Shown: positions 8,483-33,711 of the stretch, one piece after another
How the letters are laid out: every line of letters begins with the position of its first letter
How positions within the stretch are numbered: position 1 is the stretch's first letter
Assembly (NCBI RefSeq): GCF_014251555.1
Contig: NZ_CP059190.1
Location: 108,919 to 143,341, forward strand
Direction: 5' to 3'
DNA: 34,423 nucleotides
Source of the DNA: Blattabacterium cuenoti
Lineage (GTDB): Bacteria; Bacteroidota; Bacteroidia; Flavobacteriales; Blattabacteriaceae
Notes under the pieces: model-generated
Databases searched by the model: none
Told to the model about the DNA's origin: nothing
Seen by the model: only the letters and a program-made list of their open reading frames with translations
Made by a program: the position numbers and the translations under genes

Positions 8483-9253
8483 ATGAAAATTACTGATACC
8501 CATACTCATCTGTATATGAAAGATTTTAATGAAGACATTGATTTTGTAATTAAAAATGCCTTGAATCAAGGAATACACAGATTTTTTATTCCTTCTATAG
8601 ATTCTTCAGACATTCCCAATATATTAAAATTAGAAAAAAAATATCCTAATATATGTTATCCTATGATAGGACTTCATCCTAATAGAGTTTTTCCAGATTC
8701 TTTAGAAAAAGAATTAAATAGTATTAAAAAATGGTTATGGAAACATTCCTTTATTTCTGTAGGAGAAATTGGAATGGATTTTTATTCAGAAAATAAATTT
8801 TTTTCAGAACAAGAATACGCTTTTCAAATTCAAATAAAATGGGCAAAAAAAAAAAAACTACCCATAGTTCTACACTGTAGAAAAGCTTTTGATCATATTT
8901 TTAACATTTTATCAAAAGAATCTTCTATTCAAGGAGTATTTCATTGTTTTTCTGGAACTTTAGAACAAGCAAAAAAAATTATTGATTTTGGAATGAAAAT
9001 AGGGATTGGAGGCATGATTACTTTCAAAAACAATCATGTCAGTCAATTTTTGCATAAAATAAGTCTAGATCATATCGTTTTGGAAACTGATTCCCCCTAT
9101 CTTTCTCCACATCCTTTTAGAGGAAAAAGAAATGAACCAATGAATTTAAGAATAATTTTAAAAAAACTTTCTCAAATTTATTCAACATCAGAAGAAAGAA
9201 TAGCCGACATTATTCATCTAAATGTAGAAAACTTATTTTTTTCATCATGTTGA
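8483..9253 (+). CDS. tatD: TatD-family metal-dependent hydrolase/DNase
   Basis: This 256-residue TIM-barrel hydrolase has the metal-binding pattern of the TatD family in order: DTHTHL (H7, H9), GEIGMDFY with the bridging Glu near 94, HCRKAF, HCFSG, and ETDSPYLSPHPFRG. TatD proteins are 3'-5' DNases and may also trim RNA or D-aminoacyl-tRNA products. The exact in vivo role is uncertain. The frame crosses an A13 run at 8845-8857 (coding Lys) without disruption, a slippage-prone site. It ends one base before the convergent fumC stop. YcfH/TatD subfamily assignment is not possible by eye. Confidence 0.94.
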   Translation: MKITDTHTHLYMKDFNEDIDFVIKNALNQGIHRFFIPSIDSSDIPNILKLEKKYPNICYPMIGLHPNRVFPDSLEKELNSIKKWLWKHSFISVGEIGMDFYSENKFFSEQEYAFQIQIKWAKKKKLPIVLHCRKAFDHIFNILSKESSIQGVFHCFSGTLEQAKKIIDFGMKIGIGGMITFKNNHVSQFLHKISLDHIVLETDSPYLSPHPFRGKRNEPMNLRIILKKLSQIYSTSEERIADIIHLNVENLFFSSC

Positions 9254-19260: not shown

Positions 19261-19264
19261 AATT

Positions 19265-19548
19265 AAGTAGGACGACCTATCGCATTGAATAAATGAGGAA
19301 AGTCCGGACACTATAGAGCAACACAGTGGGTAACACCCATCCATCGTGAGATGAGGAATAGTGCAACAGAAAGAAAGTACAGATAAATTGCTGTAGTGAA
19401 ATCATGTAAACTCTGTGTGGTGAAATGCCATGTACACCGGAAAACTGGCTCGGTTGATACCGGGGGGTAGGCAGATAGAGATCATGGGTAACCTAAATCC
19501 TAGATAAATGATAGGTATAAATACAGAACCCGGCTTATAGTCCTACTT
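19265..19548 (+). ncRNA. rnpB: RNase P RNA (M1 RNA)
   Basis: The RNA is about 284 nt. The terminal helix P1 is AAGTAGGA (19265-19272) paired with TCCTACTT (19541-19548). The universally conserved core is present: GAGGAAAGTCCGGAC near the 5' end, the ACAGAAA region, the GGTAAACCC-like J segments, and AGAACCCGGCTTATAG near the 3' end. It is the catalytic subunit that removes 5' leaders from tRNA precursors. It is somewhat shorter than I would expect for a free-living relative, which suggests trimmed peripheral helices. Its protein partner gene rnpA (30966-31323) is frameshifted in this same window. Confidence 0.95.
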
Positions 19549-19556
19549 ATTTTGTT

Positions 19557-28836: not shown

Positions 28837-30189
28837 ATGAAAGAAAAAGAACAGTTCTTTTTAAAAATTTACAATTTAGGAATCATTAAATTTGGAAATT
28901 TCACTTTGAAAAGTGGAATGAATTCTCCCATATATATAGATTTTCGTCCAATAGCTTCTAGACCAGATTTATTAATCAAATTATCGGATTTGCTTCTTCA
29001 TGAAGTTTCATCTACTAATTTTGAACTAATTTGTGGAGTTCCTTATGCAGCTTTGCCTATAGCTACAACTTTGTCTTTGAGGTCGAATATTCCGTTAATT
29101 ATTAAAAGAAAAGAAAATAAAGGTTATGGAACCAAGCGAGTGATTGAAGGAATTTACAAAAAAGGACAAAATTGTCTTATCATAGAAGATGTCATCACAA
29201 GTGGAGATAGTTTATTAAAAACTGTAATAGATCTTGAAAAAGAAGGATTAATTATAAAAGATATTATGTCCATTCTTGATAGAGAACAAGGAGGTACGGA
29301 AAATATAAAAAAAAGAGGATATAATATACGAACTTTATTTCGTATAGGAGAAGTTTTAAAAATGTTAGAAAAGAAACATTTTTTAAAAAAAAAAAAAATA
29401 CATATGATTCAATTTTTTTTTAGCAAAAAAAATATAAAAAATCTTCAACGTATTTCTTATGAAGAAAAAAAAGAGAAAATTTCTCATCCTATAGGAAAAA
29501 AACTTATTGATATTACATTGAAAAAAAAAACCAATCTGATTGTTTCTGCGGATTTAGTTCATTCTAAAAATATATTGAAATTAGTTGATTTAATTGGAGA
29601 TAGAATTTGTGGATTAAAACTTCATGTAGACATTATTAATGATTTTTCATTTTCATTTATAAATTCTCTTAAAAATATTTCTATAGAAAAAAAATTCTTA
29701 TTACTTGAAGATAGAAAATTGTGTGATATAGGTCCTACTAATTATCTTCAACTACATTATGGAATATATAAAATCTCATCTTGGGCGGATATTATCACTG
29801 CGCACGTACTTGCGGGCAGTGGGAGTATACAAAACTTGAATATACCTTCTAGTATGGGTTTAATTACGATATCTGAAATGTCTTCTTGTGGAAGATTGTC
29901 CGATGACAATTATATAAGAAGAGCATTGAATATTTCTTTGAAAAATCCGAAAGTCATTGGAACTGTGGCACAAAGAAAAGTAGACGATAGATTATTACTA
30001 TTTACACCTGGTGTTCATTTTTCTCATGAAAAAAACTTATCCTCCTATATTCATCCCACTCAAGCTTTTGAAAAGAATGGAAGTGATTTTATCATTGTAG
30101 GAAGAGCTATTTACCAATCTAACAATCCAAAAATAGCAGCAGAAGAATATAGTAACGCAGGATGGAAAGCGTATGAAAATGGGCTTTGA
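28837..30189 (+). CDS. pyrEF: UMP synthase-like fusion: orotate phosphoribosyltransferase + OMP decarboxylase
   Basis: One 450-residue frame encodes both last steps of UMP synthesis. Residues 1-185 are PyrE: FTLKSGMNSPIYIDFRP, KRKENKGYGTKRVIEG and the PRPP motif CLIIEDVITSGDSLLKT. A Lys-rich linker follows and crosses an A14 run at 29385-29398. Residues 200-450 are PyrF: IVSADLVHSK, GLKLHVDIINDFSF, EDRKLCDIGPT with the Asp/Lys tetrad, ITAHVLAGSGS, ITISEMSSCGRLS and GSDFIIVGRAIY. Domain order and PyrF motifs resemble eukaryotic UMPS more than stand-alone bacterial PyrF. It ends 5 bp before a short palindrome. Both active sites look intact. Confidence 0.96.
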   Translation: MKEKEQFFLKIYNLGIIKFGNFTLKSGMNSPIYIDFRPIASRPDLLIKLSDLLLHEVSSTNFELICGVPYAALPIATTLSLRSNIPLIIKRKENKGYGTKRVIEGIYKKGQNCLIIEDVITSGDSLLKTVIDLEKEGLIIKDIMSILDREQGGTENIKKRGYNIRTLFRIGEVLKMLEKKHFLKKKKIHMIQFFFSKKNIKNLQRISYEEKKEKISHPIGKKLIDITLKKKTNLIVSADLVHSKNILKLVDLIGDRICGLKLHVDIINDFSFSFINSLKNISIEKKFLLLEDRKLCDIGPTNYLQLHYGIYKISSWADIITAHVLAGSGSIQNLNIPSSMGLITISEMSSCGRLSDDNYIRRALNISLKNPKVIGTVAQRKVDDRLLLFTPGVHFSHEKNLSSYIHPTQAFEKNGSDFIIVGRAIYQSNNPKIAAEEYSNAGWKAYENGL

Positions 30190-30399: not shown

Positions 30400-30975
30400 A
30401 TGGAATGGATAAATTCATTAATCAGTTGTTTTATGATCCTTTTTAGCATTATCGACATATTAGGAAATGCTCCCATTATTATGGGATTCAAATCAAAAGG
30501 AAATATTATAGATACTAAAAAAGTTATAATCACTTCTCTTGTTATATTCTTATCTTTCCTCTTTTTAGGACAACCTATGCTCAAAATTATTGGAGTGGAT
30601 GTTCACTCTTTCTCTGTAGCAGGATCTATAGTATTGTTTCTAATCGGTTTAGAAATGATATTAGGGGTGGACCTTCATAAGGTAACAGAAAACGCTCAAA
30701 CTTCTATTGTTCCAATAGCTTTTCCTCTTATAGCTGGACCAGGATCTTTAACTACCTTGATTTCATTAAGAACAACTTATGATGTAAATATTATCCTTTT
30801 ATCTCTGATTCTTAATATGATTGTTGTCTATTTCGTGATAGACAGATGTGATTTTATAGCTGAAAAAATAGGAAACAATGGGTTAGACATCCTAAAAAAA
30901 ATATTTGGAATTGTTTTATTAGCTTTTGCCGTTAAAATTTTTGGAGCAAATGCAGGTCAATTATTTCAACCATAA
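30400..30975 (+). CDS. MarC-family integral membrane protein
   Basis: ATG 30400 gives 191 residues (MEWINSLISCFMILFSIIDI). A TTG two codons earlier is possible. Six hydrophobic helices and the conserved family blocks SIIDILGNAPI, SFSVAGSIVLFLIGLEMILG and PIAFPLIAGPGSLTTLI identify the MarC/UPF0056 family. The role of MarC proteins is unclear. The historical link to multiple antibiotic resistance was not upheld. A small-molecule transport role is suggested by fold. Its last 10 bp overlap the 3' end of the rnpA region on the other strand. Confidence 0.9.
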   Translation: MEWINSLISCFMILFSIIDILGNAPIIMGFKSKGNIIDTKKVIITSLVIFLSFLFLGQPMLKIIGVDVHSFSVAGSIVLFLIGLEMILGVDLHKVTENAQTSIVPIAFPLIAGPGSLTTLISLRTTYDVNIILLSLILNMIVVYFVIDRCDFIAEKIGNNGLDILKKIFGIVLLAFAVKIFGANAGQLFQP

Positions 30976-31323
30976 TCTCTTTTTATTTTATTAAAGATTT
31001 TTTTAATAGATTGATTTATATCCTCAAATTCAGGATAATATAAACTTTTGTAAATGAAAATTATATAAAAAATTTTGCTTCTTATATGTTTTTCCAAAAT
31101 AAATTTATTCAATGAAAAACAAGCTCTCAATAAACGTTTTATTCTATTTCTATGAACCGATTTTTTAAAGTTTTTTTTTTACTAAAGTTCCAATTAAATT
31201 GATTAATGAATTTTTTTCATAATTTATTTTTTCTAATAGAAAAATAGAAGAAACAGGATCTACCAACAAATATTTTCCATTTTTTATGACTTTATCAAAA
31301 ATTTTTTTACCTTTTGTTTTCAT
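30966..31323 (-). pseudogene. rnpA: rnpA, RNase P protein, frameshifted in A10 tract (possibly rescued)
   Basis: ATG 31323 opens MKTKGKKIFDKVIKNGKYLL... and reads 51 codons to GTLVKKKL, then hits TAA just after ten consecutive A (T10 at 31171-31180 on the plus strand). Dropping one A restores one frame to TGA at 30966-30968, giving 118 residues: the family core NFKKSVHRNRIKRLLRACFS with the RNR motif, then a full C-terminal helix ending IKKIFNKIKRDYG. The total of 358 nt is 3x119+1. The downstream frame has no stop and keeps conserved residues, so decay is recent or the product is made by slippage. It starts 4 bp after the fbp stop on the same strand. Confidence 0.9.
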
Positions 31324-31327
31324 GTAA

Positions 31328-32323
31328 TTATTCATTCATAAATTCTTCTAATTTAGATACCATTCCTATGGGGCCACATACAAATGGAGTTCTTTGATGT
31401 AATTTTGTAGGTTCTATATCTAGAATACGTTTTCTTCCATCAGAAGCCTTTCCTCCAGCTTGTTCTGCTAGAAAAGCGATTGGGTTGCATTCATAAAGCA
31501 ATCTTAATTTACCTTCTGGAGAAGAAGCTGTTTTAGGATAGATATATATTCCTCCTTGGATCATGTTTCTGTGAAAATCTCCTACCAAAGATCCAATATA
31601 TCTTGCCGTATAAGGACGATTTTCTTTTTTTTCTTGGCAATATTTTATAAATCTCCTAATACCATTAGAAAATTTTGCATAATTTCCTTCATTAATAGAA
31701 TAAATTCTTTCTTTTTTAGGAAAAATAAGATTAAGATGAGATAAATAAAAAGTTCCAACTGAAGGATCTAAAGTGAATCCATGCACTCCATTTCCAGTAC
31801 TATATACTAGGATAGTAGAGGATCCATAAATAATATATCCTGCAAGGATTTGTTGATTTCCTTTTTGCAAAAAATCTTCTATTGTTACATTCATTTGAAT
31901 AGAAGATTTTCTCATATATACGGAAAATATAGTTCCGATAGATACATTTACGTCTATATTGGAAGATCCGTCAAGTGGATCTATTAAAACAATATATTGA
32001 TTTTGTAAAAGATTTTCTTTTTTACTATTTATCACTATAAAATCTTTACTTTCTTCGGAAGCTATTCCACAAACTACATTTCTGCTTTTAAAAGATTCAA
32101 TAAAAGCTCTGTGAGCAAAATCATCCAATTTTTGTTGATTTTCTCCTTGAATATTAGTTACTCCAGAACTCCCTATGATTTCTTCAGTTAAACCTGCTTT
32201 ATTGACTTCTTTATGAATAGCCTTAGAAGCTAATTTAATAGAACTAAACAATCGCAACAAGGCCTCAGTTGAATATGAGAAACGATCTCTATTTTCTATA
32301 ATAAACTCCCCTAATGTATACAT
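31328..32323 (-). CDS. fbp: Fructose-1,6-bisphosphatase, class I
   Basis: Fbp makes fructose-6-phosphate, the committed step of gluconeogenesis. The 331-residue protein has the metal and phosphate sites IASEES, the signature [20 protein letters not shown] and the C-terminal [21 protein letters not shown] block with the catalytic-site lysine. Length is typical. Keeping Fbp suggests that sugars are built from amino-acid-derived carbon, in line with gltA and fumC here. It lies upstream of rnpA (4 bp). An 8-bp hairpin sits 19 bp before its start. The product looks intact. Confidence 0.97.
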
Positions 32324-33231: not shown

Positions 33232-33711
33232 GTGAATAAAAAAATTCATATTTATACTGACGGTTCTTCAAAAGGAAATCCTGGACCAGGAGGATATGGA
33301 GTTTTTATAGAAACAATTGGAAATTCTTATAATAGAAAAATAATTTCCGAAGGATTCCGTTATACAACGAATAATAGAATGGAATTATTAGCAGTTATTG
33401 TAGGATTAGAAGAAATAAAAAAAAAAAAACAAAATATTGTCGTTTTTACCGATTCTAAATATGTAGTGAATCCGATTCAAAACAATTGGATTTATAAATG
33501 GAAAAAGAATAATTTTTTTAATAAAAAAAATGTAGATCTATGGAAAAAATTTTTAGATCTATTTTATGAACAATTTATTGTTTTTCAGTGGATAAAATCT
33601 CACAATAATCATTATATTAATGATTATTGTGATAAATTGTCAGTCGAAGCTTCTAAAAGAAAAATTCTAAAAATAGATTATGTGTATGAAAAGCAGAATC
33701 CGTTTTTATAA
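33232..33711 (+). CDS. rnhA: Ribonuclease HI
   Basis: RNase HI cuts RNA in RNA-DNA hybrids. The frame begins at a non-ATG codon: GTG 33232 gives NKKIHIYTDGSSKGNPGPGG after Met, close to relatives, and TTG 33226 is the alternative. The active site is complete: Asp in IYTDGS, Glu in NNRMELLAV, Asp in VFTDSKYV and the His/Asp pair in KSHNNHYINDYCDKLS. The last block is encoded by a perfect 33-base palindrome (33600-33632). An A13 run (33417-33429) encodes KKKK without loss of frame. The 3' end overlaps the SpoU methyltransferase by 6 bp. Confidence 0.94.
   Translation: MNKKIHIYTDGSSKGNPGPGGYGVFIETIGNSYNRKIISEGFRYTTNNRMELLAVIVGLEEIKKKKQNIVVFTDSKYVVNPIQNNWIYKWKKNNFFNKKNVDLWKKFLDLFYEQFIVFQWIKSHNNHYINDYCDKLSVEASKRKILKIDYVYEKQNPFL
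33600..33632. repeat. Perfect 15-bp-arm palindrome inside rnhA
   Basis: Arms 33600-33614 (TCACAATAATCATTA) and 33618-33632 (TAATGATTATTGTGA) are exact reverse complements around TAT. The hairpin covers codons of the RNase HI active-site His and Asp. Confidence 0.95.

Follow-up and report, generated by a model that had tools for sequence, protein, structure and literature searches.

The closest described systems are the poly(A) frameshifts of the insect endosymbionts Buchnera and Blochmannia, for which rescue by slippage has been proposed or shown (Tamas et al. 2008; Wernegreen et al.; PMC3017870, PMC4389277, PMC5009743; statements about published work in this article refer to excerpts of the papers cited). 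Corrected transcripts at poly(A) runs have been reported at 12–50% in other insect endosymbionts (PMC5009743), and earlier work cited by PMC3017870 put them at about 30%. Homopolymer frameshifts that were kept for a long time in Blochmannia have been described before, to judge from the title of a cited paper. Some homopolymer frameshifts of Walczuchella may retain function, and rnpA is unnamed in the excerpt concerned (PMC3971599). In Blattabacterium, the cockroach endosymbiont, whose symbiosis is put at an age of 140 to 300 million years (PMC6128925), rnpA, the gene for the RNase P protein, was listed as the sole pseudogene of the Bge genome and ascribed to a presumed A-to-T change (PMC2768785).

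The window analyzed here is a stretch of 34,423 nucleotides from the genome of Blattabacterium cuenoti (G000; one contig, 638,736 bases). A sequence-only reading had reported that the rnpA frame of the window stops just after ten A, and that joining the frames there gives a 118-residue RnpA with the RNR motif and an intact C terminus; both points were confirmed. On the minus strand, the first half reads MKTKGKK...LIGTLVKKKL and stops directly after the A10 tract and a CTT, and the second half is read in a shifted frame from within the tract (Table 1). Fused at the tract, the halves match the Pfam family PF00825 (Ribonuclease_P) over profile positions 10–108 of 109 with 47.2 bits, over the curated cut-off of 22.3. 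Against NCBIfam TIGR00188 the joined protein scored 35.1, slightly below the cut-off of 38.35, and the continuous RnpA of another Blattabacterium genome, G045, likewise fell below it (33.4). On evidence other than TIGR00188, the window RnpA is a divergent member of the RNase P protein family. When the G045 protein was compared with the PDB, there were seven matches at E ≤ 0.1, every one an RNase P protein, and in this alignment the tract-encoded residues sit immediately before the conserved RNR stretch. The positions given in the sequence-only reading were right to within a few bases (rnpB, for instance, had been placed at 19265–19548 and was found at 19264–19553). The A10 tract is unremarkable by itself: A10 has 31 overlapping matches on the two strands of the window, against 13.6 expected, and in the other listed genes of the window such tracts leave the frame unbroken. 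What is remarkable is that the frame breaks here, and that it does so genus-wide.

Table 1. The rnpA locus, its partner and its control in the window (position 1 is the first letter of the window)
Feature	Positions	Strand	Description
rnpA first half	31165..31323	-	frame 0, ATG at 31323, end KKKL then TAA 31167-31165
A10 tract, frame-change point, proposed slippage site	31171..31180	-	A≥9 here in 46/49 genomes
rnpA second half, RNR motif	30966..31172	-	shifted frame, NFKKSVHRNRIKRLLR... to TGA at 30966; PF00825 38.6 bits alone
rnpB, RNase P RNA, partner of RnpA	19264..19553	+	RF00010, 189.8 bits
fbp-like gene, immediately upstream of rnpA, synteny anchor	31328..32323	-	ORF; relatives found
pyrEF A10 tract, in frame, matched control	29521..29530	+	same-length tract compared across the genus

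We carried out the comparison with sister strains that the sequence-only reading had proposed, using all 49 Blattabacterium genomes and reading the rnpA junction in each. The rnpA loci were anchored by the C-terminal motif of the fbp-like gene; among the matches listed, L029 had no match to this pattern. The names fbp, pyrEF and marC, like those of the other neighbors, are what we presume these genes to be from their sequences. A PF00825 match over the cut-off was found in 49 of 49 genomes, and 33 of these matches begin at profile position 47–49, which is the tract; the partner RNA, rnpB, likewise has a full-length RF00010 match in all 49. By length, rnpA is in phase 0 in 11 genomes, +1 in 18 and +2 in 20, and it is thus out of frame at the same tract in 38. 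The gene is continuous in 10 genomes and interrupted in 39, a count that includes G042 (Bge-like), where the length is in phase, yet an in-frame TAA stands at the junction. In the rnpA of G042 (L002), an A10 is followed by a shortened second A-run, a compensating indel that restores the phase and leaves the TAA; a slip confined to the A10 would leave this stop in place. The break looks neither new nor like a sequencing slip, and the suggestion that the gene had been newly lost does not agree with a break that is spread across the genus and flanked by two open halves.

Outside the genus, 17 of 19 other genomes of the family contain an RnpA match, and 16 of these matches are without an internal stop, in open frames of 79–129 aa; the five that we read directly are all continuous. 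The match in G066 (263 kb) is weak, below the cut-off, with two internal stops, and a search with the same script found no continuous frame in it. The family search returned no RnpA match in G054 and G055. These three genomes are candidate cases of an RNase P that lacks a normal protein.

The tract measures A9–A13 in 46 of the 49 genomes. All 38 out-of-frame genomes keep A≥9, and among the 49 there is no out-of-frame genome without the run. It has shrunk to A6 in G002, G006 and G015, which lie in separate parts of the tree, and rnpA is continuous in all three, compared with 7 of the 46 others (Fisher p = 0.0065, for species that are not independent). A further Fisher test, of rnpA against all neighboring runs, was set aside because the species are not independent. 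In the 46 genomes that keep A≥9, the counts for phases 0, +1 and +2 are 8, 18 and 20, with G042 in the first group (chi-square test for equal thirds, p = 0.067). On a species tree built with FastTree from 16 neighboring proteins (5798 columns), the phase requires a minimum of 23 changes, and the mean for shuffled labels is 22.6. The phase of rnpA is without phylogenetic signal.

Stops were counted over 40 codons before and 50 codons after the tract. We found none in the 1960 first-half and 2450 second-half codons of the 49 genomes, and hence none in the 1520 and 1900 codons (3420 together) of the 38 that are out of frame; further stops in sister strains, which the sequence-only reading had named as one part of the evidence that would tell against it, are absent from these codons. 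The other frames contain 113–175 stops in 1482 codons of the first half and 203–237 in 1862 codons of the second, or 8–13%. In a neutral simulation of 114 codons in one lineage, 19%, 4% and 0.45% of runs remained free of stops at 0.05, 0.1 and 0.2 substitutions per site, respectively. The R, N, I and R columns of the motif, which also served to find the frame, are identical in 49 of 49 genomes.

Selection on the halves was assessed by dN/dS (NG86). In eight close pairs with both members out of frame, the ratio was 0.36 for the first half and 0.38 for the second; over all 13 close pairs it was 0.34 and 0.46. Nine neighboring genes gave 0.055–0.26, and rnpA therefore evolves faster than they do. 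By same-phase clade, the joined halves gave 0.32 (G040/G019), 0.51 (G036/G007/G025), 0.49 (G009/G030), 0.62 (G023/G011), 0.30 (G044/G012), 0.31 (G047/G001) and, in the least constrained, that of the window (G000/G029/G005), 0.70, where the second half alone gave 0.57 and the first 1.10. Five other close pairs, of which four differ in phase, ranged from 0.09 to 0.46. In two more of the seven clades the first half likewise gave a ratio above 1 (1.14 and 1.24), with few synonymous changes and in an alignment that may contain a few codons ahead of the true start; the first half may be weakly constrained in the window clade and these two. Each of the 38 out-of-frame genomes has a single break, at a run of A≥9, between halves that are open and under purifying selection, which is weaker in some clades. 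The accumulated stops and further breaks of a pseudogene are absent from these genomes; the exception among the 49 is G042, with its second, compensating indel and its stop. To judge from these counts and ratios, rnpA is probably not a dead gene.

Neighboring genes served as controls. We surveyed 20 kb stretches from 48 genomes, in which 875 gene-genome pairs were aligned, 32 of them past the edge of the stretch. Alignments in a second frame occurred in only two of the 875 pairs, pssA in G006 (L135) and rho in G014 (L143). A stop fell within the alignment in 26 pairs, always at most about 20 residues from an end of the gene. Inside single-frame alignments, there were 587 interior runs of A≥9, of which 279 were A≥10. 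The closest match to the rnpA tract lies in pyrEF, where 44 of 49 genomes have A≥9; the runner-up among 139 sites reaches 26 genomes. A motif parsed the pyrEF tract in 42 of 49 genomes: 39 carry A10 or A11, all in frame (the run is A11 if the codon ahead of it has A as its last base), and 3 have no run of eight or more. As this in-frame tract is itself so widely kept, we dropped retention of the rnpA tract as sufficient proof of selection for slippage. The pyrEF tract lies near the beginning of the PyrF part of the fused gene, and slippage at that point would yield PyrE without PyrF. Still longer runs in frame occur in the window, namely an A14 at 29385–29398 (pyrEF) and A13 runs at 8845–8857 and 33417–33429, in what we take from their sequences to be TatD-like and RNase H-like genes, respectively. 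Long A-runs are tolerated when they are in frame.

We also looked for further frame breaks in six more 20 kb stretches from each of G000, G029 and G005, a noisy survey that included ORFs in noncoding frames, and followed one clear additional case across the genus. In G000, a protein that measures some 375 aa and matched no Pfam family (L186:17543-18663, G000:C1:57543-58663) is split at an A12 (L186:17816-17827); it is continuous in G029 and G005. It was matched in 17 of 49 genomes: it is continuous in 12, interrupted in G000, G007, G027 and G032, and fragmentary in G048.

Full-length RnpA could also be produced at translation, by ribosomes that change frame at the A-run or next to it, with a +1 shift at the TTT or CTT preceding the stop in one phase and a −1 shift on A AAA AAA in the other. 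In 12 of the 18 +1-phase genomes, that of the window included, frame 0 runs into a stop after KKKF or KKKL. Codon-stop contexts of this sort are known from +1 shift sites, and long A-runs are slippery for ribosomes also. We nevertheless think this explanation unlikely: because both phases occur, two different ribosomal events would be required, and the position of the frame-0 stop varies from 4 to 16 residues on. A folding scan detected no structure downstream of the tract (z averaged −0.14 across the 49 genomes, with a single value below −2), and 1 genome of 49 has a Shine-Dalgarno-like motif upstream of it. The fixed direction, conserved slip site and stimulator of a programmed ribosomal frameshift are thus not seen together here. 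As breaks in both phases occur among sister species, slippage during transcription is favored over a single +1 shift of fixed kind by the ribosome, and it fits because a long A-run is sufficient for it and both wrong phases are served, whereas a single ribosomal shift serves one. The earlier proposal that the frame is restored at the poly(A) tract therefore gains support in its slippage form and loses it in the form of a fixed ribosomal +1 shift. Another possibility is that the DNA is mixed, with several tract lengths in polyploid cells or populations, the assembly reporting the commonest and in-frame copies lying alongside. A phase without phylogenetic signal would be expected if length turned over very rapidly. 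At equal tracts, however, the consensus is orderly, both in the 39 scored pyrEF tracts and in the 279 neighboring runs of A≥10, and we regard mixed DNA as quite improbable, although rnpA may carry unselected heterogeneity.

A decaying or defunct rnpA, with the RNA acting by itself, was suggested in 2009 for Bge, in a paper that calls the gene a pseudogene and points out that the RNA is capable of activity in vitro without the protein (PMC2768785). The high dN/dS of the window clade, the first-half values above 1 in three clades, and the two family genomes in which RnpA was not matched all point in that direction. A dead gene would have to have stayed free of stops in all 38 out-of-frame genomes, an outcome that the simulation makes rarer as divergence grows, and to have kept both its PF00825 match and its motif columns in 49 of 49; we consider it very improbable. 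Homopolymer errors of sequencing or assembly, which the sequence-only reading had raised, are a natural concern for data from 454 machines, which were used for some early genomes (platform table, PMC4567559) and, together with Sanger sequencing, for Bge (PMC2768785). As a general cause, such errors are scarcely credible, because tracts of equal length in neighboring genes of the same genomes are in frame, only 2 of the 875 neighboring pairs aligned in a second frame, and the phase differences extend to bases outside the run; an error could still account for an individual genome. Least probable is that the halves, both kept as open frames, are translated separately and then assemble. In 37 of the 38 out-of-frame genomes (the exception is G031), the second half has no ATG, GTG or TTG before the RNR motif, though rarer starts are possible; in the window there is none between the upstream stop in the same frame and the motif, and in ten genomes the halves are plainly fused.

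Transcriptional slippage at a live gene is, in our judgment, the likely explanation: RNA polymerase slippage would give mixed transcripts, and with them enough RnpA, whatever the genomic phase. The reading frame at the tract would be nearly neutral in the DNA. RNA polymerase would slip on the A-run and produce mRNAs with varying numbers of A, some of which would be in frame at any genomic length and would yield sufficient full-length RnpA for RNase P. If genomic length is nearly neutral, selection would retain the two coding halves and the slippery tract, and replication slippage would be free to alter the phase. From the break, its recurrence in both phases, the open halves, the matched controls and a run that is never lost when the gene is out of frame, we infer the slippage itself, the mix of transcripts and a tolerance of a low RnpA dose; a lowered level of RnpA, as the sequence-only reading had supposed, is plausible. 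A study of Buchnera (PMC5574713) saw no frame restored by an error of transcription, a negative that counts against slippage. With less assurance, we lean toward the joint proposition that the DNA frame has been decoupled from RnpA since the deep splits of the genus, such that selection acts on the A-run and the halves, not on the phase, and sister species flip among the three phases.

Our literature search, in the excerpts that it covered, found no published description of the genus-wide rnpA pattern, although an earlier mention in print is possible. The available parts of PMC6039017, PMC6128925, PMC4567559, PMC9603385 and PMC4389277 did not yield rnpA, and in that of PMC12642639 Blattabacterium and rnpA occur in unrelated places. 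If the joint proposition is true, polymerase slippage would do more than patch occasional mutations, and, for a core gene of RNA processing, the frame in the DNA would have been irrelevant over a very long span of evolution. The 49 genomes, with their known phases, would form a natural experiment from which the RnpA dose that is needed and the slippage rate of the symbiont polymerase could be measured with RNA data. Calls of rnpA as a pseudogene in Blattabacterium genomes may be wrong.

Programmed slippage at dnaX (Thermus) has a fixed phase and uses more than one product. At rnpA, in contrast, the phase wanders, and the full-length product alone looks useful. The likeness between the two lies in the run, since in programmed slippage genes, of which PMC5009743 mentions dnaX, nine A give mRNAs of several lengths, as would be the case at rnpA. 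Closer still are the Buchnera and Blochmannia frameshifts, which share with rnpA an AT-rich insect endosymbiont, an indel in an A-run, an otherwise intact gene and a proposed correction by polymerase slippage. They differ in scope: PMC3017870 treats eleven genes in three Blochmannia genomes, whereas in Blattabacterium one gene is affected genus-wide, in 38 or 39 of the 49 genomes, with both wrong phases represented and at least 23 phase changes. The dnaX frameshift common to B. vafer and B. floridanus (PMC3017870) is likewise a break at one poly(A) position, in a gene for information processing, but it concerns two species, and the excerpt describes no turnover of phase. The Bge pseudogene, with its stop at residue 53, is the same gene in one strain, read as an A-to-T point mutation (PMC2768785), whereas comparison across the genus points to A-run indels in a gene that has been kept. 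Rescue of poly(A) frameshifts, and their long retention in Blochmannia, are thus known; what is different in Blattabacterium is that the break is genus-wide, occurs in both phases and has turned over repeatedly.
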